DNA of 64,000 nt, taken from Cannabis sativa (Eukaryota; Streptophyta; Magnoliopsida; Rosales; Cannabaceae). The stretch is taken from the NCBI RefSeq assembly GCF_029168945.1, contig NC_083603.1, positions 9,300,001 through 9,364,000 of the forward strand, written 5' to 3'. How positions within the stretch are numbered: position 1 is the first letter of the stretch; every line of letters starts with the position of its first letter. Positions 14,877-46,900 of the stretch are shown in pieces. The notes under the pieces are model-generated. The model ran no database searches. It had not been told where the DNA came from and worked only from the letters and a program-made list of their open reading frames with translations. The position numbers were made by a program, and so were the translations under genes.

Positions 14877-15382
14877 TGTAAAGACCGCTTAGTTTTAATT
14901 TAGAAATTAGCAGGTAATTAGGGCTTTATTATGAAAATTATTTATTAATATTGAATTAATTATTTTATGATGATTTATTTGAATTCAGAATGCATTTTTA
15001 TGTCACTTATAGAAATTTCATAATTTTGCATATTTTGTGTCCGGCAACATTGGAACGCGGTGTTTGGCTATTAGAATCACATCATACTATTTTCAGTATA
15101 GCGGGACAATAATTTAGATATTGGAAATGTCGGAAATAGTCGAGATTTTAGATTTTCCCAAAATACCCCTTAGTGATTTCCTTGAAGGTTTTGTGTGGGC
15201 AAGGGCATTTTGGTCTTTTTGCTCATTGAGTATTTTGTCCTTTAGTGGACTTAGTATTATTTTAATAAGTTGATTTTAAGTTATTTCTTGGCTGAAATAG
15301 AAGATAGAAAACTCTTTTTATTACTTTAATATTTCATATTTTTTTTACAAAATATCAAAAAGAAGGAAAAATTATTTTTGGT

Positions 15383-15426
<44 letters not shown>

Positions 15427-16884
15427 TCGAAACCCTTGGGGAAGGCAGCAACTTGGAGTGTTTTCAGCTGGTTTTTACTGGTTTAGGTTGATTCTTGGAG
15501 GATCCTTTGAAGGTATAGCTTTAGTAACCTTCTCTCTAGCTTTCTTTGGTTTTAAAGAAATGAATTTTTGCATGAATTGGTATTTTTGTTGCTGTGGTTG
15601 CTGTAGCTGTTGGATGTTGATTTCTATAGTTAAAATATGATTTATTATGTTGAATTAAGCATGAATTATTAGTTGTTTGAAGGTTTAACCAAGTTTTGAG
15701 TTTTAGAACTCAAACTTGGAGCTTTCATGGTGAAATTTAATTCCGAGCTTTGATTGTTGTTTTATTGCTTGGAAATAGTTTATTGGGGTATAATATGCAG
15801 GTCTGGAAAGTTTGGTTGAGTTTGGAAACGAGTTGATTAGGGTTTGAACTTTTTTGGTTTTTCAAGGTAAAACCGGCTAACCGGTTTTACAATGCTTGTA
15901 AAACCGGTTACCCGGATTTTGCAGTAGGGAAACCCGAAAATTCAGCTTGTCGTTTCGCGTCAGTTTCAAATTTCTAGTTGGTTGATTCCCTGCTAGTTTA
16001 GGGTATTGTCATATTGAGTTGCAGTAGATAGGTTTTTGGTTTTAAACCTAAGTCCCGGTTGTGATTTAGCGAGTCACTTATGCGTGTTGTTATCGATGTG
16101 ATTTAGGAGCCTATAATTCGCCGAGCAGTTGTTCCACTCAGGTTAACCGGCACACCTGAATTTGGAATTGAGGTAAGATTAGTATTATATCATGCATATG
16201 TTATTACATGTTTAGCGTACATGTTGTTATTTCCAGTTAGATTACATTGATAGCAGTAATAGTATACATAGAGTTGTGTTGATTACTGATAAATGTATGT
16301 TGGCTAAAATACTGATCAATGTTGTCACATCAATATGGCTAGAGTATGACTAGCATATTGAGTATAGGCTGACATTATGGTCGATAGTATTGTCTTATGA
16401 ACGTTCTAGACTCAGTACCGTGTGGGACACGGGGATTAGGGTTATGATCGGGTGTATGGGTGCCAGATTATAACTCGGGTTATTTGTATGTTTATGTTAT
16501 GCTTTTCTTACTGAGTCTTTCGACTCACAATGCTATCTTTATGTCTAGGTAAGGGCAAGGCTAAAGTTGAGGAGCCGTGAGTACGAGCAGGTGAAGATTG
16601 TACATGTCGGGGCGGTTAGGCCTGGAGCGTACGATCTTTGGGACAACGAGGCTTTTGCTGTATAGTCGCTGGGCGACAAACTTTTGTTTATATGTATAGC
16701 AAACTTTTAAAAAGTATTTTGTAAACGGGATCCCGAAATTTTATATATGTAATACTTTAAGTTGTTTAATTAATTTAGCAAATTTTTAATTAATCACGTT
16801 TTTCATTAACTTCGTTGATTAGCAACGAGCTGCACAGTACGTTTAAAATCACGCTAACATGCCTATGCTAGTTAGGGTGTTACA
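14877..16884 (+). mobile_element. Chromovirus (Tekay/Del-type) solo LTR, plus orientation
   Basis: Starts TGTAAAGACCGCTTAG and ends TTAGGGTGTTACA, with a perfect AAATA duplication on both sides (14872-14876 and 16885-16889). Start and end match, in opposite orientation, the LTR at 19026-21370 and the end of the LTR that starts at 62799. There is no internal region, so this is a solo LTR left by LTR-LTR recombination. At 2008 bp it is about 340 bp shorter than the 19026 copy. The frame at 15458-15640 is not believed to be a gene. Confidence 0.93.
15387..15424. repeat. (CT)n microsatellite in the solo LTR
   Basis: An uninterrupted CT run of about 38 bases inside the solo LTR. The 19026 copy has only short GAGA words at the corresponding place (about 20855-20875). 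Confidence 0.9.
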
Positions 16885-17714: not shown

Positions 17715-19596
17715 GCAACTACTAGGTTTAGGTTAGGAATTATTTGGCATTAAAATAATGAAAATATTAATTTGAAAAACCTATTTAAGTGGCCGGCCAT
17801 GGTGTGTTAGTGGGCCTCACTTGATTTTGCAGTTTTATCAAATTTTATCTCTATTTTCTCAAAAACGCCAATTTTCTAATTCTAACCTTTTAAATGCCAA
17901 AACTAATTATTTAATAACTAAAATACATTATTAAATAATATTGTCATTTAATTTAATTATTAATTAGACATATAAAGTCCATTAATAAATAAATAAACCT
18001 AGAAACTCTTTTCTTTACAATTTCACACCTGCTTAGTGAAAATTCATAAAATTAGACATAGTCTAACTTTAGAATTATAATTGATCAATCACGAATCAAT
18101 TAATGAGTCTTACAAGCAGAATGTTCTCAACTAGAATGGGGACCATGGATCTATATGCTGAGCTTCCAATAAGTGAACCAAATTTACCAAGTAAATTCCT
18201 ACTTATTAATTCTTCGTTGAATCCACTCTTAGAACTTAGAATTGCACTCTCAGACTTATATAGAGCATATTGTATGTTCCACGATATCAATATACTATCT
18301 CATTTAACCATTGTTATAATCTTATTGTGATTTAAAGATCCTCTATATAGATGATCTACATCGAGATGGGATTTCTTTACCGTTCTCATCCCTCAATGTA
18401 TTTTGCCCCTTAAAATACTTAGCTACCTGTAAATGGTGTTTAGTGATCTAATAATTAGTCAGTTAAACAAGAGCTCATCCATTTACTTCTATTTGCTAAG
18501 CTCGAAGGGAATCATCACTTGACTTTTATACACCAGTAGAAGCTATAGATTCCATATTTATGTTCAGCACTCCCACTCAATCATACTATCATGTTCCCAA
18601 AATATACGTATCACCCTGACCCAAAAGTAGGCTTAACTAATAAATCAAAGAACATGAATAGCACTCCTGAGTTGAGCCTAAGCATATCAGGATTTAGATT
18701 CTTTTAATCTTAAGATCAACTACTGATATTGACTTGGAAAGATATGTATAACGGTAAGTTTGTAGTATCTTAACTTAGTTGCAATATCGGTCCAGTCCAA
18801 TGTATACTCCATACATTCGAAACTAGTATACTTTACTAATGTCCTGGAAAGAACATAACACTTACTCCAAGTGTAAGTACACATCATCACTGATTATCAC
18901 ATTAGTGTAAATCCAATAACACTGATGAAACAGGGACCAAAACTTTTGATTCATATGATCACAATCACATTCCATTGTGTTGATGATACTGTAATTGTGA
19001 ATAAACATATGATCTGGATTTAACTTGTAACACCCTAACAAACATAGGCGTATTACGTGATTTTTAAACATGCTGTGCAGCTCGTTGCTAATCAACGAGG
19101 TTTATGGAAAACGTGATTAATTAAAATTTTTGCTTTTTAATTAAACTTATAAAATATTATTACAAAAGACTCAGGATCCCGATTACAAAATCATTTACAA
19201 AAAGATATAACTGTTCATACAAAATAATTGTCGCCTAGCGACTAGTTTCAAAATCAGCCTCGCTGTCCCGAGGATCGTACTCTCCAGGCCTAACCGCCCC
19301 GACATGTACAACCTTCATAAGCTCGCTCACGGTCCATCAGCTCTAGCCTTGCCTTTGCCTACACATAAACGTAGAACTGTGAGTCGACAGACTCAGTAAG
19401 AAAAGCATAATAATACTCATACATAAATCCCGGTCATGATCAGACGCCCATACCCCTGATCACAACCCTAACTGCCGTGTCCAACACGATACTAAGTCCC
19501 GCTACTGCCGTGTCCAACACGGTACTGAGCCACTACTGTCGTGTCCAACACGGTACTGAGTTCTGAACGTTCATAGGGACGGTACTATTGACACGT

Positions 19597-19830
19597 AACA
19601 GTCTGATCGGTCGAACCGGTCATACTCCATTCTTGGTCATACTCCGGCTGTACCGACGTGTTACTATATCCACGATCGGTCGAGCCGGTCATACTCCATT
19701 TCTTGGTCATACTCCAGCTGTCTCGACGGGATACGTCAATAGTACGGAACCACCAACCAAGTGTCGGCTGATCGGTCGAGCCGGTCATACTCATTCTTGG
19801 TCATACTCCAGCCTGTACCGACGTGATAGG
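19597..19830. repeat. Tandem repeats in the chromovirus LTR
   Basis: Three copies of a unit containing GATCGGTCGA(A/G)CCGGTCATACT followed by TTCTTGGTCATACTCC and a tail with ACCGACGTG or CGACGGGAT. The unit is about 70-100 bp, unequally spaced. The 62799 LTR has an analogous but differently sequenced array at 63310-63570. Confidence 0.75.
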
Positions 19831-20160
19831 GTTGGATGGTTCAAAGCCAACATACATAACAATGTAATCTAACAGGCTTCCTACATGCACGCTAAACATG
19901 TAATCTACATATGCATACTGTTATACTAATCTTACCTGGATTCCGAATTCAGGTGTGCCGGTCAACTCCGACCGGAACTTTAAGCTAACGCGGTGGATTA
20001 CAGGCTCCTAAACCATAAAAATCACAACACTATAAGTGATACGCTAAATCACTTCCCGGGGACTTAAACTAGGAACTAAAAGTTTCCCTATCACTAAAAA
20101 GCATGGCAATACCCCCTAAAACATAAAATCGAGGAAATCTAGAGTTTGTGAAAATTCCCC

Positions 20161-20252
20161 AACCGGTAGACCGGTTGCCCAACCGGAATTCCGGTTCTGG
20201 AAAATTCAGAACCCTCATCCGGAATTCCGGATGCACAACCGGAATTCCGGTT
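20161..20252. repeat. Cluster of CCGG-centred palindromes in the LTR
   Basis: Four near-perfect palindromes in 92 bases: AACCGGT-AG-ACCGGTT (20161-20176), AACCGGAATTCCGGTT (20181-20196), CATCCGGAATTCCGGATG (20216-20233) and AACCGGAATTCCGGTT again (20237-20252). Equivalent clusters lie in the other two LTRs (15871-15920 and 63881-63986). Function unknown. Confidence 0.9.
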
Positions 20253-21370
20253 CCTCGCAGGCAGCAAACTCAAAAATTCATAACTTGCACAAATCGACTC
20301 CAAATCAATTCAAACCTTCCAGACCTACTCCATATGACCCAAAGAACATTTCTAAGGCATCAAAACCACCCAGATTGCACATAATCAAAATTCACCATTA
20401 AAGCTCAAGCTTTGAGTTCTAAACTCAAACTTGAGCAAACCTAGCTAGATGCAATCAAATCCATCTAAACTTACTTAAACAAGCATAACTAAGCCTCTGG
20501 AAACAATTAAAAACATCAACAATATCACAGCAACAGATTCAAAGCATTTCTCTCAAAAATCATAGTTTTAGCTTAGAAAAATCATAACTTTACTCAACCT
20601 AACTATCATGCTTCAAAACAACCTAAATAACCTTAATCTAACAAGCTTTAAACCTCTGAAATTAAGAACAAATTCACAGCAGCAACAACATCTAACAATC
20701 ATGCATTTACTCATATTTTCACCATTTTTATTAAAGAAAATAAAGGGAGAAACTTAGAGATCACATACCACAATCAAGGGTTCACAAATTTATGATGAAT
20801 CTAGCTTGAAAATTGAAGAAAACCAGCCCTAGAATTCCATGCAACCAGCCGAAAAAGAGAGAGGAAAAAGAGAGTGTTTTTGAATTTTCTATCTTTTTTC
20901 TAAGTTGTACTTTTTTGATAAAATGAAATAAAAGACACCTATATCATCTCATTTCAGCCAATATTAAAAGTCAAATAACATTTATTTTTCCATTAATAAC
21001 CTCACTAAAGACAAAATATCATTGGGGCAAAAAGACCAATTTGCCCCTCCACACTAAAACCACATAATAATCACTAAAGGGGTATTTCTGGGAAATTCTA
21101 AATTCCCGGCCATTCCCGACATTCCCAATGTCTAAAAAAACTGCCCCAAACTACTAACATACTAAGTTGTGATTTCTACTGAGCCAACCACCGGGTTCCA
21201 AAATACCGGGCACCGGAATGCAAAATTATGCAAACTACTACATGACATAAAAATGCATCTCTGAATTCAATAAATAACAGTATAATAAATTATTTAAATA
21301 GCTATAAATAATTTTCATAATTACTCATAATTAACTGCTAATTTCCAAATTAAACTAAGCGGTCTTTACA

Positions 21371-21387
21371 ACTATCCCCCCCTTAAA
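21371..21387 (-). promoter_or_regulatory. Polypurine tract of the chromovirus
   Basis: The minus strand reads CTTTTAAGGGGGGGATAGT directly before the LTR start TGTAAAGACC. This is the expected plus-strand primer site for reverse transcription and fixes the inner LTR border. Confidence 0.9.
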
Positions 21388-22268
21388 AGGATTTCGTCCC
21401 CGAAATCTAACCTGAATAACTCTGGATATTGAGCTCTCATATCTGACTCTAGCTCCCAGGTGGCTTCCTCCACCTTGCTGTTTCTCCAGAGAACCTTGAC
21501 CAATGCTATGGTCTTATTTCGAAGGACTTTATCCTTTCTATCCAGGATCTGCACTGGCTGTTCCTCATAAGTCATGTCTGGCTGTAGCTCAAGGCTCTCA
21601 TAACTGAGTATATGAGAGGGATCTGAAACGTATTTTCTCAACATCGAGACATGGAATACGTTGTGAACTGCTGATAAGGCTGGAGGCAATGCTAACCGAT
21701 ATGCCACTTGACCTATCTTCTCGAGAATCTCGAAAGGTCCTGTAAATCTAGGGCATAACTTGCCTCTTTTCCCGAAACGTTTGATCCCCTTCTTCGGAAC
21801 TACCCGTAAAAACACATGGTCCCCTACTTGGAACTCAACATCTCTGCGTTTCGGATCTGCGTAACTCTTCTGTCTACTCTGTGAGGCAAGCATTCTAGCT
21901 TTTATCTTCTCTATTGCCTCATTGGTCCGCTGCACTGACTCTGGACCTAGGTATTTCCTCTCCCCTGTCTCATCCCAGTGGATGGGAGATCTACACTTCC
22001 TACCGTATAACAGTTCATAGGGAGCCATCCCTATCGTACTCTGATAACTGTTGTTGTAAGAAAAATTCTATCAACGGTAGATACTTATTCCATGAGCCTT
22101 CAAAGTCCATAACACAGGCTCTCAACATGTCCTCCAATATCTGAATTGTCCTTTCGGACTGACCATCTGTCTGAGGATGGAATCTTGTCTTGAATTTCGG
22201 CTTGGTACCCATTGCGCGTTGCAAACTTTGCCAAAATTTGGAGGTGAACTTCGGATCCCTGTCCGAAA
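21372..22268 (-). pseudogene. Chromovirus integrase C-terminal half with chromo-like tail, frameshifted
   Basis: Three frames are needed. The stretch 22225-22268 encodes [12 protein letters not shown] with the second catalytic Asp; 22015-22224 encodes [18 protein letters not shown] with the catalytic Glu; 21372-22028 encodes [18 protein letters not shown], then a GPFEILEKIGQVAYRL block and a tail reading LRNKTIALVKVLWRNSKVEE and ATWELE, the chromodomain-like end of Tekay/Del-type integrases. Such tails can steer integration by binding chromatin. At least two frameshifts separate the pieces, so no functional integrase can be made. Confidence 0.9.
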
Positions 22269-23195
22269 CTATAGACTTCGGTACCCGTGAAGTCTTACTA
22301 TCTCTACGACATACAACTCTGCCAACTGATCCACTGTAAATGTTGTTCTAACCGGCAGAAAATGAGCAGATTTCGTAAATCGATCCACCACTACCCAGAT
22401 GGAATCAAACAAACCCGTGGTCCTAGGTAACCCGACCACAAAATCCATCGTGATATCTTCCCATTTCCATTCTGGTAGGGTTAGAGGCTGCAACAACCCT
22501 GCTGGTCTCTGATGTTCAGCCTTAATCTGCTGACAGGTGAGGCATCTCGATACGAATTCTACCAAATTCTTCTTCATACCGCTCCACCAGAAGTACGGTT
22601 TCAAATCTTGGTACATCTTAGTGGTGCCGGGATGTAGAGAATACGGGGTAGAATGAGCATCCTCAAAGATCTCATTCCTGAGTTCCACACTATTCGGAAC
22701 ACAAACCCTAGCTTTATACAAAAGCGTCCCGTTGTCTGACACTGAAAAGTCCTTGGCTTGACCAGCCAACACCTCATCTCTGATCTTCACTAACTCTGGA
22801 TCCGTCATCTGAGCGACTTTTATTCTTTCCAACAGACCAGATTGAAGCGTCAAGTTGTGAAGCTGACCTACCACAAACTCAATGCTGGATCTAACCATAT
22901 CCTCTGCTAGCTGAGGTGAGATCTGAACCATACTAGCTACTTGCCCGGGACCCTTTCTGCTCAGGGCATCAGCCACTACATTGGCCTTTCCGGGGTGATA
23001 GAGGATCTCACAATCGTAATCTTTCACTAATTCCAACCAACGCCTCTGTCTCATATTCAAATCCTTCTGAGTAAAAAAATACTTGAGACTTTTATGGTCG
23101 GTATAGATTTCACACTTTTCCCCGTAAAGGTAATGCCGCCAAATCTTCAATGCGAAAACCACCGCGGCCAACTCTAGGTCATGAGTCGGGTACAC
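22269..23195 (-). pseudogene. Chromovirus RNase H and integrase N-terminal half
   Basis: Continues the polyprotein in a new frame after a frameshift near 23190. RNase H is marked by [35 protein letters not shown] and [10 protein letters not shown]. It is followed by the integrase zinc finger ([11 protein letters not shown]...[12 protein letters not shown]) and the first catalytic Asp region ([25 protein letters not shown]). The frame ends shortly before the second catalytic Asp. Confidence 0.9.
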
Positions 23196-24757
23196 TGTTC
23201 ATAATCCTTTAACTGACGGGAGGCATAAGCGATAACCCGATCGGCTTGCATCAATACACACCCCAAACCCTGTTTGGATGCGTCACAGTAAACTACGAAC
23301 TTCTCCTTGTCTGAAGGCAAAGCTAGCACTGGAGCGGTAATCAACCTCTGCTTTAGCTCCTGAAAACTAGCTTCGCACTTGTCTGACCAAATAAATCGCT
23401 GATTCTTCTTCGTAAGCTCGGTTAGGGGCATTGAAATTTTTGAAAACCCTTCCACGAACCTACGGTAGTACCCAGCTAAACCCAAGAAGCTTCTGATCTC
23501 TGTCACTGTCTTCGGTCTCGGCCAATCCCTGACGGATTCAATCTTCCCGGGATCCACCTTGATCCCATCTTTGCTTACAATGTGCCCTAGGAAAGACACC
23601 TGAGATAGCAAGAACTCACATTTCTTGAACTTGGCATAAAGCTTATGTTCTCGAAGCCGTTGCAGTACCATCTGAAGATGTAACTCATGCTCCTCTTCTG
23701 ATTGAGAGTACACGAGGATGTCGTCGATAAACACAATCACACAGATATCGAGGAAATCCTTGAATACTCTATTCATCAAGTCCATGAATGCTGCAGGAGC
23801 ATTGGTTAGTCCGAATGACATAACCTGAAATTCATAATGTCCATACCTAGGGCGGAAAGCCGTCTTCGGAATGTCCTCCTCTCGGATTCTCAACTGATGA
23901 TAACCCGAACGGAGATCAATCTTAGAAAAGACCGTCTTCCCCTGAAGCTGATCGAACAAATCATCGATCCTAGGTAATGGATATTTATTCTTCACCGTCA
24001 GCTTGTTCAATTCCCTGTAGTCGATGCACATCCTCATAGATCCATCCTTCTTCTTGACGAATAAAACCGGGGCTCCCCAGGGTGACACACTGGGCCGAAT
24101 AAACCCTATGTCAAGCAACCCTTGGAGCTGAATCTTTAATTCCTTAAGTTCAGCTCGAGCCATTCTATACGGGGCTTTGGAAACCGGTTCCAACCCTGGT
24201 GCCAAATCTATCACGAAGTCAGTCTCCCGCTGAGGTGGTAACCCTGGAAGTTCTTCGGGAAAAACATCCAAAAATTTTCGAACCACTTTGATGTCCTCTG
24301 GCCGAATGGTATCTGGCCGAGTGGTGTCCACCACCACGACCAGAAACCCTAAGCATCCGCCATGTAATAACTCTCTAGCTGACATGGCCGAAATCACCGG
24401 GATCCGGGATCCCTGAACTGAACCAACAAACACAAATGGTTCTTCACTTTCCGGTTGGAAGATCACCATCTTCCTTTTACAATCTATACTCGCCGAATAT
24501 TTAGATAGGAAATCCATTCCTAAAATAATGTCGAACTCTACTAAACTCATCTCTATCAAGTCAGCACTTAACTGTCTACCATCTATCCTGATCGGCATAG
24601 ACCTAATCCACCTATTGGAGATAACCAATTCTCCGCTAGGTAATAGGGTTCCAAACCCTGATTCATATCTATCGTACGGTCTATCCAATTTACTAAAGAC
24701 TCTGGCCGCCACATAAGAATGTGTAGCCCCAGAATCAAACAGCACTGAATATAGCGA
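23174..24757 (-). pseudogene. Chromovirus protease and reverse transcriptase, frameshifted
   Basis: The frame opens with [13 protein letters not shown], the aspartic protease active site, and has no proper upstream ATG of its own: it should be a continuation of gag. The reverse transcriptase follows with [53 protein letters not shown], the [12 protein letters not shown] catalytic core and FLGHIVS. The RNase H start has [11 protein letters not shown]. All visible catalytic residues are present. Frameshifts at both ends (from gag near 24770, into RNase H near 23190) break the polyprotein. Confidence 0.92.
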
Positions 24758-24776
24758 GTTATTAATAGAAAGGCGA

Positions 24777-25957
24777 CTGTGACAGGCGATGGGCTGGCAT
24801 CTGCATCAGCCTGAGTGATGGAGAACACCCTGGCTGGAGTGGGTATCGCCGGAGCTCTCGGTGCCTCTGATCGGAGCTGGGGACAGTCCCTCTTGAAGTG
24901 TCCGAGCATGCCACAGTGAAAGCATCCCTGACCTTTGCACTCACCCCGATGGTGCCTTTTGCAGCTAGGGCACTCGGGATAGGAGAATCGGGTCTCAGTA
25001 CCACCAGGACGACTCCTTCTGTTCTGGTTCCCCCAGAACCTCTTGTTTTGACTCGAGCCACCGGAAGCAGTGGGTGCTCTCTTCCTCTGATCAATGGCCG
25101 AACCACTACTCCCCCTGCTAAAGCCTGATGCAGGAGGGGTAGGAGCCCCGCCACTCGCCGGAGTACTAGCTGACTCCGACATACACCCAACTGCGCCCTC
25201 AGCTCGCAGTGCCTTCTCCACCATCTGAGCATAGGTGGTGCTGTAGTCCGTGGTGATCATCAAATCGTGTTTGATCTTTGCATTCAACCCATCCACGTAC
25301 TTCTCTTTCTTGCTGAAGTCGGTCGGCACAATTCCCGAGGCTAACCTCGCCAACCGGTCAAACTGAGTAGTATACTCGGTGACGCTCATATTCTCACGCT
25401 GGGTCAGGTGAGCGAACTCTTTCCTCTTGGCGCTTCTGACCGCCTCATTGTAGTACTTCGCGTTGAAGAGTTCCTGGAACCTTTCCCAGGTCATGGTGGT
25501 GACGTCATGAATCTGAGACACCATGTCCCACCAGACCAGAGCGTCCTCCTGGAACTGGAAAGTGGCGCACACCACTCTGTCATTACCGGTGACACCCATG
25601 AAGTTCGGGATCTTGGTAATCACCGTCGGCCCTTTGTTCGGCACAGGCGGCGGGGGCGGTGCCCTTGGAACTACGGGCACGGGAGGCTGCGGGAGCACCT
25701 GCCGTCTCGGCCTACGAATCTCGAGGTCTTGCTCTTCTATCCGGCTTGCATCTCCGCAAACCGAACCTCCCAGTCTGGGCTCCACGATCGGCCGGGGGAG
25801 CACAGGCAGCCTGTGGCGGGTTCTCATCACCCCGACCACGAGCCCTGCCTCGGGGACCTCTACCTCGGCCCCTAACAGGTGGGGGAAACTGAGCTCCCTG
25901 TCCTTGGTTCGACCCCACTGAGTTGCCCTGACTCCAAGTAGTCCGCCTGGCGTCCAT
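24777..25957 (-). pseudogene. Chromovirus gag, frameshifted
   Basis: The probable start is the ATG at 25957 (MDARRTTWSQGNS, followed by an Arg-Gly-rich stretch), typical of chromovirus gag. Near 25720 the reading frame must change to reach the main frame, which has PNFMGVTGNDRVVCATFQF, WWDMVSQIHD, FNAKYYNEAVRSAKRKEF and YVDGLNAKIKHDL of the retrotransposon gag domain, then a CCHC knuckle CFHCGMLGHFKRDC at about 24882-24923. GC content is markedly higher than in the surroundings. The C-terminal 30 residues of the long frame are out-of-frame protease sequence. Confidence 0.88.
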
Positions 25958-26223
25958 CTAGCTAGAACCGCCTGCGAAACCAAGAGTTGGCATATCAGGT
26001 CGTATTCAAGGAGAGCTTACTAATGCCGCTTAATTTGGAAATTAAAAATGAAACATGCGCCTATTGTACTATCAGGCTACTAACATGCTTCCTAATAGGC
26101 TTTTCTTTTTCATAATTGAATAAAATAAACTACTAAAGCAATAAAGGCTTACTGAACCGTGAAACGAGCTAACTGTTGATGATGATTGTACATGTCGTGA
26201 CGATCTTCGGAAGACAACCTGGC
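25958..26223 (-). other. Untranslated leader of the chromovirus
   Basis: Lies between the primer-binding site (26224-26236) and the gag start (25957). No coding signal. Its normal neighbour on the right would be the 5' LTR, which is absent. Confidence 0.7.
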
Positions 26224-26255
26224 GGCTCTGATACCATTCAAATGGTATCAGAGCC
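26224..26255. promoter_or_regulatory. Two primer-binding sites in inverted orientation
   Basis: GGCTCTGATACCATT (26224-26238) and AATGGTATCAGAGCC (26241-26255) are perfect inverse copies with only CA between. Each contains TGGTATCAGAGC, the site complementary to the 3' end of plant initiator tRNA-Met used by many LTR elements. The left one, read on the minus strand, belongs to the chromovirus; the right one, on the plus strand, belongs to the Cassandra-type part. A normal element has one PBS directly after its 5' LTR. Confidence 0.92.
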
Positions 26256-26746
26256 TTGACCCAGCCGGAAGTGTTGTCGACGAGGACGTCGGACCCCGTA
26301 AGGGGGGGTGATTGTGACAGTCAGTAGTCCCGTGATCTGTAAGGGGAAATACCGGGTAAGCTGTGCAATCCCACATCGCCTGGGGAAGGTCAAGTGGGAT
26401 GATTCTGAGACTGTGTAGGTATGGGACTGCACAGTTGAAGAGAGCTTAAATGGATTGATTGGTACTACCTATATCAACAAGGTGCATCTTGTTTTTCGGT
26501 AGCCCATCACGAAAGAACTCCACAGTTAAGCGTGCTTGACCTGGGAGCAATTTCAGGATGGGTGACATCCTGGGAAGTTTTCTCAGGAAGCGTGCGAGTG
26601 AGGACAAAGCACGCTGGAAACACTCGTGTTGGTCTGTAGGGTCAGTCATCGATCCAGGAAGCAGCCAGAGTGACGTACTCGTGTATAAGAGCCATTCATT
26701 CCGTGGGTGTAAGGGCCCAATGGAGGCTTGAAGCGGGGACGTTACA
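26243..26746 (+). mobile_element. Cassandra-type TRIM lacking its 5' LTR
   Basis: Order on the plus strand: PBS (26243-26255), a noncoding internal region of about 55 bases, a polypurine tract (GTAAGGGGGGGTGAT, 26298-26312), then an LTR from TGTGACAGTC (26313) to GGGGACGTTACA (26746), 434 bp. The tiny internal region without genes and the 5S-like block in the LTR are the hallmarks of Cassandra TRIM elements. The 5' LTR that should precede the PBS is missing; chromovirus sequence in inverse orientation lies there instead. Confidence 0.85.
26508..26600 (+). other. 5S rRNA-like segment in the TRIM LTR
   Basis: Contains CCCATCA, GAACTCC, AGTTAAGCGTGCTTG (26524-26538), GGATGGGTGAC (26556-26566) and TCCTGGGAAGT (26568-26578) in the order and spacing of plant 5S rRNA, covering its box A / intermediate element / box C promoter region. 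Cassandra LTRs are known to carry such RNA polymerase III-like sequence. It is not a real 5S gene: the beginning and end of 5S are missing and the rest is diverged. Confidence 0.88.
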
Positions 26747-26934
26747 TAACTGATTTTGTGTGTATGAATGTAATAAACATATTAAACATATTAAACAATT
26801 AGCATGTAAAATTCATGCAAACATCAATCACTTCAAATTTCTTATATTGATAACTAATCAGATTGTAAAGAGTTTTATTTAGGGCATAAAACCCAACAGA
26901 TTATAATCTATATTATGATTATCTCGGTAGATCA

Positions 26935-32896: not shown

Positions 32897-33176
32897 AACA
32901 TATATATGTATATAAATAAAAGAAGAAACAGTATAAAATAAAGATAGAAAAAATACATTAATATATTAGAAGGCTTTTATCGATAACTTATTGACGGTAA
33001 GAGTCGTAAGAATAGAAGATTTATGCAATAAACCTATTCTATCACCATATCTTCAACCTTACATCATAATATTGTGACTTTTTCCTTCAACCTTCTATAT
33101 CACAATATTGTGACTTTTTTCTTCTGAGACATTAAGCCTATTCAAATCATGAAACAGTAATTTTATGAGTGAGATA

Positions 33177-33629
33177 TGTTAGAAATACTGTAAATCTGTA
33201 TATAGCCCTAATTAATTCAAGAGAATCAAACAATAAAATTAAGGAATAGCGGAAGCGTACCGGAGTCCATAGAATCGACCTTTAAATGATCTTTATTGGT
33301 ATGATCTTCCAATTTGCATCAAAACCTTTCTCTGAAAGTTTTTCTCTTGGTGATGGGGATACAAGAGTGAAAAGATACGATGCAAATGGGGACCATTACC
33401 CGTTATATTACCAACAGACAAACCTGTTGGTAATATTTATTGACTATTTCTATTTGGCCCCTCATCAATATAGAAATTGTCTAATTGGTATCCACATATT
33501 AAAATCATGACAATCATGCCCTTAAGTCATAAACTTTATTCCAAAATAGACCACATAAATTTGACTTATTTATTTGATGACCCAACACACATTTTATATA
33601 TACAATTGTGACCCCAATAAATTCTAACA
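33177..33629 (-). mobile_element. 3' LTR of the outer copia element
   Basis: 453 bp; minus strand TGTTAGAATTTATTGGGG to ATTTCTAACA, with TGTTAGAA termini inverted. Directly inside lies the polypurine tract (minus strand GACCAGTGGGAGATT, 33630-33644). The small plus-strand frame here (33286-33510) recurs in the other LTR at 39271 and is not a gene. Confidence 0.94.
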
Positions 33630-34033
33630 ATCTCCCACTGGTCACATATGTATACATATAAATGTGTTAACCTTATTGAGCTCATAACTTTGTCATCATA
33701 ACCATAGGCATGTGCAATCTCGTCCATTAACTATATCAACATAGGATCAAAGCGATTTTCATTGTATCAATCACAACTGAACCCATCAATGGTCACATAC
33801 ATCAATATAGCCAAATGACATAGATCAATCATGATAATGTGGTATGAAAATTACATGCATGGTGATCTATTCATGTCAATTTTCAATTGGTCCTACTTTA
33901 TGGAGATCAAAACTTTAGCTTAAATGTACAAAGTGAAATAAACTGAATAACATAATTTTCGATCAGAAAATAACCAAAATACACATGTTTCATGAAACAA
34001 ATAAAACACACTAAAGACAAACTCCCACTGAAT

Positions 34034-37000
34034 CTAGATATCCTCATAATCTAAAACACCCATACGAGCAGTGTGCTCGTGAAAGACCTTGGGTGGCAAA
34101 CCCTTAGTAAGGGGGTCTGCAATCATGGAGTTTGTACCTAAGTGTTCTATACAAATCTGCCCACTTTGTACCCTTTCTTTTACAACAAGGAACTTGATGT
34201 CAATGTGTTTTGACTTAGTCGAGCTCCTGTTGTTGTTGGAATACAATACAGCTGATTTATTGTCACAATACAACTTAAGTGGTCTTTCAATTCCATCCAC
34301 AATGCGCAGCCCAGTGACAAAGTTCCTCAGCCATATACCATGGTTGGATGCCTCATAACATGCAACAAATTCTGCTGCCATGGTGGATGAAGCTATGAGT
34401 GTTTGTTTTGCACTCCTCCATGATATAGCTCCACCACCTAATAGATATATGTAGCCCGAAGTAGATCTCCTACTATCTTGGCATCCCGCAAAGTCAGAGT
34501 CAGAGTATCCAATGATCTCAAAGTGATCTGACCTCCTATATGTGAGCATGTACTCTCTTGTTCTCTTCAAATATCTCATAACCTTTTTGGCTGCTTTCCA
34601 GTGATCAATTCCTGGATTGCTTAAGTATCTGCCTAACACTCCAACAATGTACGCTATATCCGGACGCGTACAAACTTGAGCATACATAAGACTCCCAACA
34701 GCCGAAGCGTAGGGAATCTTTTGCATTTCTTGAATTTCAAGGCTTCCTTTAGGGCATTGTTTAAGACAAAATTTGTCTCCTTTAACGACAGGGGTATCAC
34801 CTGGTCTACAATCTTGCATGCCAAACCGTTTGAGTACTTTATCGATATAGCTCTTTTGTGATAATCCAAGAATACCGCGAGAACGGTCTCGATGTATTTG
34901 AATTCCTAAAACAAAAGAGGCGTCACCAAGATCTTTCATCTCAAAATGCTTCGATAGAAATCTCTTGGTTTCGTGCAATAAGCCTATATCATTAGTGGCA
35001 AGCAATATGTCATCGACATATAGAACCAGAAATATACACTTACTCCCAATAAACTTATGATACACACAATCATCAACAACATTCATCTCAAAACCAAATA
35101 AGAGAACCACTTGATGAAATTTGTGGTACCATTGACGGGAAGCTTGCTTGAGTCCATAGATGGATTTTTTTAATTTGCAAACCATTTTCTTTGGGTCACC
35201 AACCACAAAGTTTTCTGGTTGCTCCATATAAATTGTCTCATCAATGTTGCATTAAGAAACGCTGTTTTAACATCCATCTGATGTAACTCAAGATCAAAGT
35301 GAGCAACAAGTGCCATTATTATTCTAAAAGAGTCTTTCGATGAAACCGGAGAGAAAGTCTCTTTATAATCAATGCCTTCTTTCTGAGTATAGCTTTTTGC
35401 TACAAGACGTGCCTTAAACCTCACCACATTACCATTTTCATCCCTCTTGGTTTTAAATATCCATTTACAACCAATTGGTTTTACACCTTCTGGTAATGGG
35501 ACAACTTCCCAAACTTTATTGTCTTGCATAGACTTATTCTCTTCATTCATGGCATCATTCCACTTTTGAGAGTTAGAACTTTTCATGGCCTGATGAAAGT
35601 TGATTGGATCATCTTCCATCATTCCAATGCCATCCTCATGTTCTTGAAGATACACTATGTATTCATCTGGATTAATAGCATTTCTTCTTTCTCTAGTGGA
35701 TCGTCGCAAAGGCACTTGTTCTTGAGGTTGTTGAGTTTGTACCTCTGGGGTTTGATTGACTATGTTTGGCTGCTCTTGATCTAAAACTTGATCAATATTA
35801 GGAATGGAATCCTGGATATTGTCAAAAGCAACTATTGGAATAGGAATCAACTCATCCTTAAGAGAAGTGAGTGATTCTAAATCCTCCTCAAAAACAAAGT
35901 CTTTAACCGTATTTCTCCCCCCAAACTCAATATCCTCAAAGAACTTTGCAGTTCCCGTTTCAAATATATTCTTTACTTTGGGATCATAACACTTGAAACC
36001 CCTAGATCGTTCAGAATATCCAATAAAGTAGCTGCTCACAGTTTTGGGTTCCAGTTTCTTTTCATTTGGCCTATAAGGCCTAGCCTCAGCTGGACATCCC
36101 CAAACATGAAAGTGCTTAAGACTGGGCTTTCGCCCTGTCCAAAGCTCATAAGGTGTTTTTGCAGCTGCTTTGGTTGGTACCCTATTCAAAATGTAGGCTG
36201 CTGTCTTAAGTGCCTCTCCCCAGAGTGATTCTGGTAAGGTTGAATGACTGATCATACTCCTTACCATATCTTTAAGAGTACGGTTTCGTCTTTCAGCAAC
36301 ACCATTCATGCTAGGAGATCCTGGCATAGTGTACTGTGGGACGATTCCACACTCCTCTAGATATCTGGCAAAAGGTCCTGGACGTTGTTCACCTGATCCG
36401 TCATATCTGCCATAGTACTCACCACCTCGGTCAGACCTGACTTGCTTTATTCTTTTGCTAAGTTGATTCTCAACTTCAGCCTTAAAAGATTTGAACACGT
36501 CCAACACTTGAGACTTTTCATGAATTAGAAATAGGTACGCATATCTTGAGTAATCATCTATGAATGATACAAAATATCGTTGACCATTCCAAGAAGGTGT
36601 AGGAAATGGCCCACAAATATCTGTATGTATCAACTCTAAGACATCTATAGCTCTTTTCGCACCTAATTTCTTTGTTTTGGTCTGTTTGCCTTTGATGCAT
36701 TCAATACAAACATCAAAGTCTGAAAAATCAATTGAATCTAAAATTCCATCAGACACAAGTCGCTCAACTCTATTTCTAGAGATGTGACCTAACCGTTTGT
36801 GCCATAAGGAACTTGATTTTTCATTATCCATTTTACGCTTAGTACCACGTGATTCCACATTCAAGGTTTCATTATAAGAAGCAACAGTGTCAAGCAAATA
36901 TAAGTTGTCATAAACCATAAGTGAACCAGTTCCAACAGTATTTGAATTAATAGATAAACTAAAGCAATTGTTTCCAAATGAACAACAATAACCCAATTTG

Positions 37001-38163
37001 TCCAAACAAGAAACAGAAACCAAATTCCGTCTAAAAGACGGTACAACAAAAGTATCTATCAAATCCAAATAGTAACCAGTACTTAATAACAACCTAAAAT
37101 GCCCTATTGCTTCCACATTTACCGACTTGCCATCTCCCACATAAATGCTTCTTTCAGCATCATTTGGCTTTCGGTAACTCAGGCAACCCTGCATAGAAAC
37201 ACTGATGTTAGTAGTAGCACCGAAATCTAACCACCAAGTGTTTCTTGGTACTAAAGCTAAATTTACCTCAGAACAGACCAAAGTAAGAAATGTACCTTTC
37301 TTTGCTCGCCATGCAATATACTTAGCACATTCCTTCTTCATGTGTCCTTTCATGTTACAAAAGAAACAAGCATCATCATTATTGGCTTGAGTTTGTTTCT
37401 TATGTGCAGGACCTTTATCCTTAGCAGCCTCATTCTTTCTTTTCTTGCCCTTATCTTTAGAGGTGCTTGCCAAATGAGCACTTTCAGTCTTCTCTTGCTT
37501 CAATCTTTCTTCCTCTTGAACACAAAATGAAATGAGCTCATTAACAGTCCACTTCTCCCTTTGGCAGTTGTAACTGACCTTAAATTGACTGAATTGTGGA
37601 GGAAGAGAGATAAGCACTAAATGCACAAGCAAGTCATCTAAAAGCTCAAGCTTTAGTGCCTTCAACTTTGAGGCAAGGTGAGACATTTCCATAATGTACT
37701 CCCTTATATTTTCCTTGCCCTTAAACTTCATGGAAATAAGTTTCTTTAAAAGAGTACTTGTTTCCGCCTTATCGCTTTTCGCAAAGCGCTTCTCAATTTC
37801 AGCAAGGAAAGTTGTGGCATCGGTGACCTCCTCGGACACTGCACCCCTAAAAGCCTCAGGTATGCCGCGCTTAATGATCATAAGACTCATGCGGTTTGAA
37901 CAGTCCCACTTCTCATAAATCCTCCTTTGCTCGGAGGTACTGGTATCCGTAAGAGAAGCAGGACGATCCATCCTTAATGCAAGGTCAAGATCCATGCAGC
38001 CAAGAACAATAAAAATGTTCTCCTTCCAGTCCTTAAAGTTATTACCATTAAGGACCGGTACCGAATTAAGGTTAGCAGATACACTAGCAACAGCTGAAAA
38101 GAACAATACAATTACATAAATAACATGCTCATATAAGAATCTAAAATAAAACAATAAATTCAA
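34034..38163 (-). pseudogene. Copia gag-pol polyprotein, one frameshift and altered protease site
   Basis: Gag domain (about residues 35-235, [12 protein letters not shown]...), CCHC knuckle [14 protein letters not shown], protease [12 protein letters not shown], integrase zinc finger (WHKRLGHIS...CIECIKGKQ), catalytic core ([37 protein letters not shown]), RT from [11 protein letters not shown] to YVDDILLATND, RNase H (YSDSDFAGC, AAEFVACYEA, LYCDNKSA, IADPLTKGLP). The frame breaks once between AFLNATL and IYMEQPENF (about 35225-35260), a one-base shift. The protease active site has Asp-Phe-Gly instead of the usual Asp-Ser-Gly, and the following THIS is TNIS. Otherwise full-length. The first ~30 codons are hydrophobic and may be intronic: the minus strand has TTGTTCTTTTCAG just before CTGTTGCTAG (38094). 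Confidence 0.92.
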
Positions 38164-39160: not shown

Positions 39161-39161
39161 A

Positions 39162-39523
39162 TGTTAGAAATACTATAAATCTGTATATAGCCCTAATTAA
39201 TTCAAGAGAATCAAACAATAAAATTAAGGAATAGCGGAAGCGTACCGGAGTCCATAGAATCGACCTTTAAATGATCTTTATTGGTATGATCTTCCAATTT
39301 GCATCAAAACCTTTCTCTGAAAGTTTTTCTCTTGGTGATGGGGATACAAGAGTGAAAAGATACGATGCAAATGGGGACCATTACCCGTTATATTACCAAC
39401 AGACAAACCTGTTGGTAATATTTATTGACTATTTCTATTTGGCCCCTCATCAATATAGAAATTGTCTAATTGATATCCACATATTAAAATCATGACAATC
39501 ATGCCCTTAAGTCATAAACTTTA
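39162..39523 (-). mobile_element. 5' LTR of the outer copia element, first part
   Basis: Nearly identical to 33177-33523. It is cut by the nested element at 39524 and resumes at 46570-46660 after one copy of the CTTTA duplication. Joining both parts restores an LTR colinear with 33177-33629. Confidence 0.93.
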
Positions 39524-40002
39524 TGTTAGAAATTTATATGTATAAACTGAAATATATATGTTTATGTATAAAATGCGGAATTAAATCAAACATATATACA
39601 CTATGAATAAGGATCGAAATACCTCCAGCCATTGATTCTTGAGCTTTAGTCCCACATAAGCTTTGATCTGCAAAGAAAACTGGTTGATGTGGGTAATCGG
39701 GCTTCCTCGCTCTCTCAACTCTCTTTAGATGGATTTTGCTGTTATGAACAGAATGAGTGAGGAGCTCGGGGACCGAGACCCTATATTTATAGGTGAGATA
39801 CTCCATCGCATGTCTGTGCCACATTAATTGTCAGAATATTTTGACAATTAATTCAGAAAATCAAATCAGGTAATGAATATAGAAATCTGACCATATATAG
39901 AATATTACGTAATTGATTCTGTCCAGATTCAATGAATATAAAATATTCATTTATCAGAATCAATAATATTATTTTATTTCCTTAATTAGAAATATTCTAA
40001 TA
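39524..40002 (-). mobile_element. 3' LTR of the nested copia element
   Basis: 479 bp. Contains, on the minus strand, the TATA box CTATAAATATAG (39781-39792) that would drive transcription. The same box is at 46344-46355 in the other LTR. The minus-strand frame 39534-39824, also present at 46049-46384, is LTR sequence and not a gene. Confidence 0.92.
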
Positions 40003-46084: not shown

Positions 46085-46564
46085 TGTTAGAAATTTATAT
46101 GTATAAACTGAAATATATATATGTTTATGTATAAAATGCGGAATTAAATCAAACATATATACACTATGAATAAGGATCGAAATACCTCCAGCCATTGATT
46201 CTTGAGCTTTAGTCCCACATAAGCTTTGATCTGCAAAGAAAACTGGTTGATGTGGGTAATCGGGCTTCCTCGCTCTCTCAACTCTCTTTAGATGGATTTT
46301 GCTGTTATGAACAGAATGAGTGAGGAGCTCGGGGACCGAGACCCTATATTTATAGGTGAGATACTCCATCAGTATCTGTGCCACATTAATTGTCAGAATA
46401 TTTTGACAATTAATTCAGAAAATCAAATCAGGCAATGAATATAGAAATCTGACCATATATAGAATATTACGTAATTGATTCTGTCCAGATTCAATGAATA
46501 TAAAATATTCATTTATCAGAATCAATAATATTATTTTATTTTCTTAATTAGAAATATTCTAATA
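46085..46564 (-). mobile_element. 5' LTR of the nested copia element
   Basis: 480 bp, about 99% identical to 39524-40002. Differences seen: an extra AT near 46118, a small indel/substitution cluster near 46372, and two single substitutions. Confidence 0.92.
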
Positions 46565-46569
46565 CTTTA

Positions 46570-46660
46570 TTCCAAAATAGACCACATAAATTTGACTTAT
46601 TTATTTGATGACCCAACACACATTTTATACATACAATTGTGACCCCAATAAATTCTAACA
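46570..46660 (-). mobile_element. 5' LTR of the outer copia element, second part
   Basis: Continues the LTR interrupted at 39524; matches 33530-33629 with one change. Ends CCAATAAATTCTAACA at the AGATA duplication. Confidence 0.92.
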
Positions 46661-46900
46661 AGATAAATAATGATTTAGAATTTGCATATTAAAAAGAAAA
46701 AAAATGAAGAAGAAAAAGAGGAGTGTGACTAAGAGAAAAAAAGAAAAAGAAATATTTTTTTAGGTTTAGGTCAAATATTTTAGGCTAATTTATAGCAATA
46801 TATAATAATATATGATAGGTTTGTTTAGATTTAAACATTTAGTTATTTTTTATAAAAAATAATAAAAAAGAGAAATCTTTAGTTTACCGTTAATATATTA

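Follow-up and report, generated by a model that had tools for sequence, protein, structure and literature searches.

The 64,000-nucleotide window analysed here (C3:9300001-9364000 of the Cannabis sativa assembly, contig NC_083603.1) contains, at positions 19026-26746, parts of two retrotransposon families joined head to head: on the minus strand, a chromovirus of the Tekay type and, on the plus strand, the terminal-repeat retrotransposon in miniature (TRIM) Cassandra. Each part has its 3′ long terminal repeat (LTR), neither has its 5′ LTR, and they meet at their primer-binding sites (PBS). As proposed in an earlier note on this DNA, the evidence set out below supports integration of the whole interval as one unit. 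The best explanation, and in our judgement a probable one, is that Tekay and Cassandra RNAs were reverse-transcribed together, that the two half-finished complementary DNAs (cDNAs) were joined head to head and that the product was integrated through its U5 ends. Comparisons were made with the 770.7-Mb assembly (18 contigs); patterns were required to match exactly, and all genome-wide counts are lower bounds.

That the unit arrived in a single event is supported by its flanks. Perfect copies of TAACT, already recognized in the earlier note, lie immediately outside the interval as a target-site duplication (TSD), and two 5-mers of this base composition would agree by chance about once in 590. 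A query running from flank to flank through one TAACT matched all 40 scored places, the best 40 of 526 candidates, over all or nearly all of its length and with 95-99% identity, and each of the 12 places that were fetched is a continuous, paralogous empty site with a single TAACT. The target was thus a high-copy repeat, and the unit was inserted without loss of flanking sequence. An ordinary insertion uses one U3 end and one U5 end. Here each of the two outer ends is a U5 end, reading ...GGGTGTTACA on one side and ...GGGGACGTTACA on the other, which confirms the noted likeness of the two (both read ...GTTACA); the outer LTRs come from different families and are unrelated, and no internal LTR is present. 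Two independent insertions, of which a later deletion or inversion left half of each, would be a very improbable origin of this structure. Rearranged insertions are common in plants (in one survey, 400 LTR retrotransposon insertions were accompanied by 20 recombinant complexes and 220 other recombination events; PMC1950507, Table 1), but such a history would require the TSD to have arisen by chance and a breakpoint to have fallen, in each element, within a few bases of the PBS, and it sits badly with flanks that join without loss at 12 out of 12 empty sites.

Features of the fused unit at 19026-26746 and its flanking duplications (window coordinates; PPT, polypurine tract)
Feature	Position	Strand	Remarks
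TSD TAACT, left copy	19021..19025		single copy in 12/12 fetched paralogous empty sites
Tekay-type chromovirus 3′ LTR, 2345 bp	19026..21370	-	outer end is the U5 end, GGGTGTTACA in element sense; aligned with LTRs of 19 relatives
Chromovirus PPT region, AAGGGGGGGATAGT	21371..21384	-	
Integrase C-terminal piece with Tekay-type chromodomain motifs EEATWELE and KVLRNK	21372..22028	-	motifs as in PMC3350952 (excerpt)
RNase H / integrase zinc-binding piece	22269..23195	-	
Protease / reverse transcriptase / RNase H piece	23174..24745	-	
Gag piece: capsid, zinc knuckle	24583..25983	-	
Chromovirus PBS, TGGTATCAGAGCC in element sense	26224..26236	-	similarity to relatives stops at 26236
TT, belonging to neither element	26237..26238		
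CA (final two bases of Cassandra 5′ LTR) and AA spacer	26239..26242	+	
Cassandra PBS, TGGTATCAGAGCC	26243..26255	+	
Cassandra internal domain	26256..26312	+	PPT AAGGGGGGG at 26300-26308
Cassandra 3′ LTR, 434 bp, with 5S-like domain	26313..26746	+	box A 26524-26535 exact; box C 26555-26567 one mismatch
TSD TAACT, right copy	26747..26751		

The left half was rightly described as a minus-strand chromovirus, with LTR, PPT, pol and gag pieces, leader and PBS in place and the 5′ LTR absent. Its domains are of the Ty3 type (gag, protease, reverse transcriptase, RNase H, integrase zinc-binding and SH3-like). The Pfam Chromo model reached 19.9 bits on the window copy, under its cut-off of 25.1, and was not listed for one examined relative; in one relative the integrase core domain reached 28.3 bits, under the cut-off of 32.6. 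The C-terminal sequences EEATWELE and KVLRNK fit both Tekay chromodomain motifs given in the excerpted text of PMC3350952. The gag and LTR pieces group with the same relatives (loci L015, L019, L020, L021 and L024), the nearest to the LTR being L024 (93%), which has its own LTR adjoining the PBS. When a query was extended to position 26238, all 39 scored matches outside the window (best 40 of 1652 candidates scored) ended at 26236, and in all 19 fetched relatives, read letter by letter, the PBS is followed by a 3-nt spacer that starts with A and in most cases reads AAT on this strand (ATT in the sense of the element), and the LTR end comes next. The left half therefore ends exactly where a minus-strand cDNA would be expected to stop on the PBS. 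We also considered that close relatives of this chromovirus might carry a Cassandra-like sequence as their 5′ LTR; none of the 19 does, and all have their own LTR beside the PBS. This is qualified by some Tekay copies elsewhere, in which a Cassandra LTR stands directly before the PBS, in the same direction as Tekay and not inverted. Two more Tekay-type LTRs, 72-83% like that of the fused unit, lie in the window at 14877-16884 and from 62799 to the window end (L010 800-3105); the latter looks like a solo LTR, since no Tekay internal sequence was found beside it.

The right half is a plus-strand Cassandra piece with PBS, PPT and a single LTR, as the earlier note had it, except that it also retains the last two bases of the 5′ LTR. 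This can be read from seven other Cassandra loci, in all of which the LTR ends in CA, followed by AA and the PBS (the bases before CA being TTA in five and TTT in two). Thus, the claim that each half stops exactly at its PBS holds for the chromovirus, the last PBS base of which is 26236, but not for Cassandra, which continues 4 nt beyond. Box A is identical to the consensus in the excerpt of PMC7215508 and box C differs from it at one position. Aligned with a plant 5S sequence, the 5S-like domain reached a score of 98, whereas 200 shuffles gave at most 50; the Rfam 5S model gave no match at 26240-26760 even at E values up to 1, which counts against 5S likeness. Loci L002-L008 show the order LTR, PBS, 76-bp internal stretch, PPT and LTR, in some cases in tandem (L005, L008), and at L002 a TSD, TTGTA, could be read. 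Tekay and Cassandra both have TAAGGGGGGG at the PPT, and the U5 end of both reads GTTACA.

At the join, the earlier note had described a 15-bp inverted repeat of two PBSs. Thirteen of these base pairs are indeed PBS, but the outer TT/AA pair is coincidental and no sign of common descent: the spacer of the chromovirus differs from AA, and the TT at 26237-26238 belongs to neither element. This TT would result if reverse transcriptase had added two A residues to the end of the Cassandra minus strand. We do not favour a Cassandra variant of the TTTCA type (L004, L005) as the origin of the TTCA at the join, since the fused unit's own 3′ LTR ends in GTTACA. In a genome search with the junction as query, the join was spanned at its own place only, and the other matches among the best 40 of 1830 candidates covered the Cassandra side alone. 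Head-to-head PBS pairs with 10-nt arms and gaps of 0-16 occur at one place in the assembly, with no match for the reversed control; 9-nt arms and gaps of 0-30 yielded the same single place, and the reversed control three matches per strand, so that the argument is carried by the flanking homology rather than by the count. The fused unit as a multicopy family was accordingly rejected, the exact and best-candidate searches having returned its own place only.

We picture the origin of the unit as follows. Reverse transcription of a Tekay-type chromovirus RNA and a Cassandra RNA would have taken place within one particle or one compartment of the cell. Each of the minus-strand cDNAs would have reached its own PBS and would therefore have possessed its 3′ LTR and not yet its 5′ LTR. 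In place of the usual second strand transfer, the PBS ends would then have been joined head to head with the addition of two bases, either by a jump of reverse transcriptase between the cDNA ends or by end-joining, and integrase would have inserted the fused molecule through the two outer U5 ends. We infer the joining step, the shared particle and the action of chromovirus enzymes. A variant that partly overlaps with this scheme, and that we regard as unlikely, has the cDNAs originating from separate particles and joined by host end-joining before integration, without co-packaging. The two bases that belong to neither element resemble end-joining filler, as this variant would have it, but each end would need integrase from a different particle, and the PBS-joined direct recombinants described below suggest that both RNAs meet during reverse transcription.

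Such recombinants, in which both elements point in the same direction, are numerous. They were sought with patterns written from Tekay and Cassandra ends and modelled on strand-transfer products between the two elements; read backwards, both patterns gave no matches in either genome search. The Tekay-like LTR end GGTGTTACA with its spacer precedes a Cassandra PBS and internal domain at 46 places, and among the 24 where the preceding LTR end was read, 19 ends are of Tekay type, nine of them (L091-L097, L102, L103) judged from the last 15-20 LTR bases, and five belong to other LTR families. Conversely, the Cassandra-like LTR end GACGTTACA with its spacer precedes a Tekay PBS at 31 places. Ten of these have the spacer of another LTR family, and the four fetched from among them all carry that LTR; 16 of the other 21 were examined, and a Cassandra LTR was found in every one. 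At C8:11576880-11577460 (L101), a Tekay-type spacer precedes a Cassandra unit that continues into the PBS of another Cassandra copy, so that the recombinant here involves a Cassandra tandem.

Both joins occur about 500 bp apart in 11 composites with the order Tekay LTR, PBS, Cassandra internal domain, Cassandra LTR, PBS and Tekay leader; their outer ends were read by eye, and in most the intervening stretches were not fetched. Perfect 5-bp TSDs, all different, flank nine of the 11 (TCGCA, ATGAT, AAGGG, ATCGG, TTTTG, TGATG, AAAGA, ACTAC and ATTAC), with the calls at C3:49329741 and C3:12283159 requiring one changed base within the first two LTR bases and that at C14:2498742 depending on the use of the second of two copies of the LTR end, which are separated by 31 bp. 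The reverse arrangement, Cassandra LTR, Tekay internal domain, Tekay LTR, Cassandra internal domain and Cassandra LTR, is found at C3:23216125-23224105 and C5:41700099-41708219, in each of which the two outer Cassandra LTRs are each other's closest relatives in the tree of Cassandra LTRs (support 90 and 99). Four more loci with a single join were tested. One of them, at C10:36243760 (L108), is an apparent 2.8-kb hybrid consisting of a Tekay 5′ LTR, read at its first 173 and last ~20 bases, which lie the expected distance apart, a Cassandra internal domain and a Cassandra 3′ LTR, with AATAC on both sides; it appears to be the product expected if the second strand transfer came from the wrong partner. 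L107 has Tekay internal sequence upstream, and no TSD was found at the outer ends of L106 and L109. Strand transfer through the shared PBS explains the hybrid as well as the direct composites; for the window unit, an extra step is needed in which two PBS ends are joined.

In a tree of 54 Cassandra LTRs, those derived from recombinants are interspersed among ordinary copies, with many forks weakly supported, and the spacers at the joins of the direct recombinants differ. Recombination between Cassandra and Tekay has thus probably been recurrent, and for the same reasons, with the same caution as to fork support, the idea that the direct composites form one replicating lineage was rejected. The outer Tekay LTR pairs of five composites are 93.6-98.1% identical over the longest aligned piece (88.0% over the second piece of one pair), and three control pairs taken between composites are 91.3-96.2% identical (second pieces 84.1 and 94.9%); these ranges overlap, so the support they lend to one reverse-transcription cycle for each composite is weak. 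The composites also bear on the window unit. It could have arisen from one RNA of a pre-existing Tekay-Cassandra composite by an intramolecular strand switch, and the 11 examined composites show that such molecules exist; in addition, the Cassandra LTR nearest to that of the unit among the 53 others is at a recombinant locus (L051, 98%). Nevertheless, we hold this origin to be quite improbable, since the Cassandra U5 end is internal in composites and not free for integrase, and the chromovirus LTR of the window is nearest to that of L024, where the element's own LTR adjoins the PBS.

Tekay is not the sole family found before Cassandra sequences. LTRs of other families precede the Cassandra internal domain at C1:6781098, C1:19152656, C1:41724106, C1:54190629 and C2:16337092 (L043, L044, L045, L046, L048), and these families are possible further partners. 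The LTRs of L044 and L048 are alike, and a PBS with a different leader comes after that of L046. Among the sequences with other LTR families before Cassandra, L104 contains no open reading frame (ORF) stretch of at least 110 amino acids; one ORF of L105 resembles gag on inspection by eye and may be part of an adjacent element. A looser pattern, in which the LTR ends in AACA as in the copia element of the window, matched five places, and the two examined resemble by eye the LTR family of L046, not copia. Three copia LTR stretches in the window, at 33176-33630, 39161-40002 and 46085-46661, correspond to pieces a-c, a-b and b-c, with 98-99% identity, and surround copia-like ORFs at 34034-38163, an odd rearrangement or a nest. 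Tekay is the Cassandra partner met most often here, though with search patterns that favour it. On balance we lean, by a small degree, towards Tekay chromoviruses being, in this plant, an autonomous partner of Cassandra: their particles would package Cassandra RNA, the shared 13-nt PBS would drive repeated recombination, their integrase would accept the Cassandra U5 end, and the window unit would be a fossil head-to-head product. The earlier note had suggested co-packaging with the chromovirus as helper; the direct recombinants support the former, and we infer that both cDNAs were in one particle at joining and that the chromovirus was the helper.

Several observations weigh against joint reverse transcription or against the partnership. 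With TT and CA at the join, Cassandra does not end precisely at its PBS, and the inverted form is a single case. The chromovirus copy is broken, with a coding region divided among several ORFs that differ in frame, so that proteins of this copy need not have been the ones at work. Private divergence differs between the pieces of the unit, the end branches of the window copy measuring 0.010-0.014 for the Cassandra LTR, 0.023 for gag and 0.048 for the Tekay LTR; these values are sampling-dependent upper bounds on insertion age and do not date it closely. Other LTR families have also recombined with Cassandra, the search patterns favour the Tekay-Cassandra pair, and the counts are not scaled to the copy number of each LTR family. 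The TSD at C8:2294466 is shifted, with GTTAT on both sides and two extra bases at one end, the composite C5:37772554 is more complex and lacks a clear TSD reading, and no matching TSD was found at the checked outer ends of the two composites bounded by Cassandra LTRs. Misassembly at the 13-bp inverted repeat was also considered and is extremely improbable: a misjoin would create neither matching TSDs nor two breakpoints at PBS edges, and the window has no Ns.

Cassandra is widespread in plants, and the excerpt of PMC7215508 called its enzyme donor, or partner, unknown in 2020. In recombinants flanked by TSDs, shared reverse transcription has left a physical record, which points to a candidate for that donor that can be tested. 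The head-to-head unit, in turn, preserves a stage of reverse transcription of which no trace normally remains, and documents integration by way of two U5 ends. Among the matches listed in a search of the open-access literature, we found neither Cassandra-chromovirus fusions nor PBS-to-PBS fusions, nor a head-to-head fusion of two families. The closest described structures are the template-switching complexes of Sabot and Schulman (2007, PMC1950507), for which co-packaged RNAs were proposed and which likewise unite the sequences of two elements that were fused before they integrated and that share one flanking 5-bp TSD. However, those are same-direction dimers of related copies with a shared middle LTR and outer LTRs that are alike, whereas the window unit is head to head, combines two families, lacks a middle LTR and has unrelated outer LTRs. 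With Tekay-clade chromoviruses, as described in the excerpts of PMC3605345 and PMC3350952, its left half shares the gag, protease, reverse transcriptase, RNase H and integrase pieces, the tRNA-Met PBS, the 5-bp TSD and the chromodomain motifs, but it has no 5′ LTR and ends at the PBS. Similarly, the right half has the 5S-like LTR, the TGGTATCAGAGC PBS, the PPT and the absence of coding sequence that mark Cassandra TRIM elements, which also form tandem units (PMC7215508, PMC10853983; excerpts), but it is reduced to PBS, internal domain and 3′ LTR and is fused with an element of autonomous type. Pairs of TRIM and autonomous elements described in the excerpt of PMC4717578 also link a miniature element with a larger one; what connects those pairs is common LTR and internal sequence, whereas Tekay and Cassandra have unrelated LTRs and are connected physically, by recombination.

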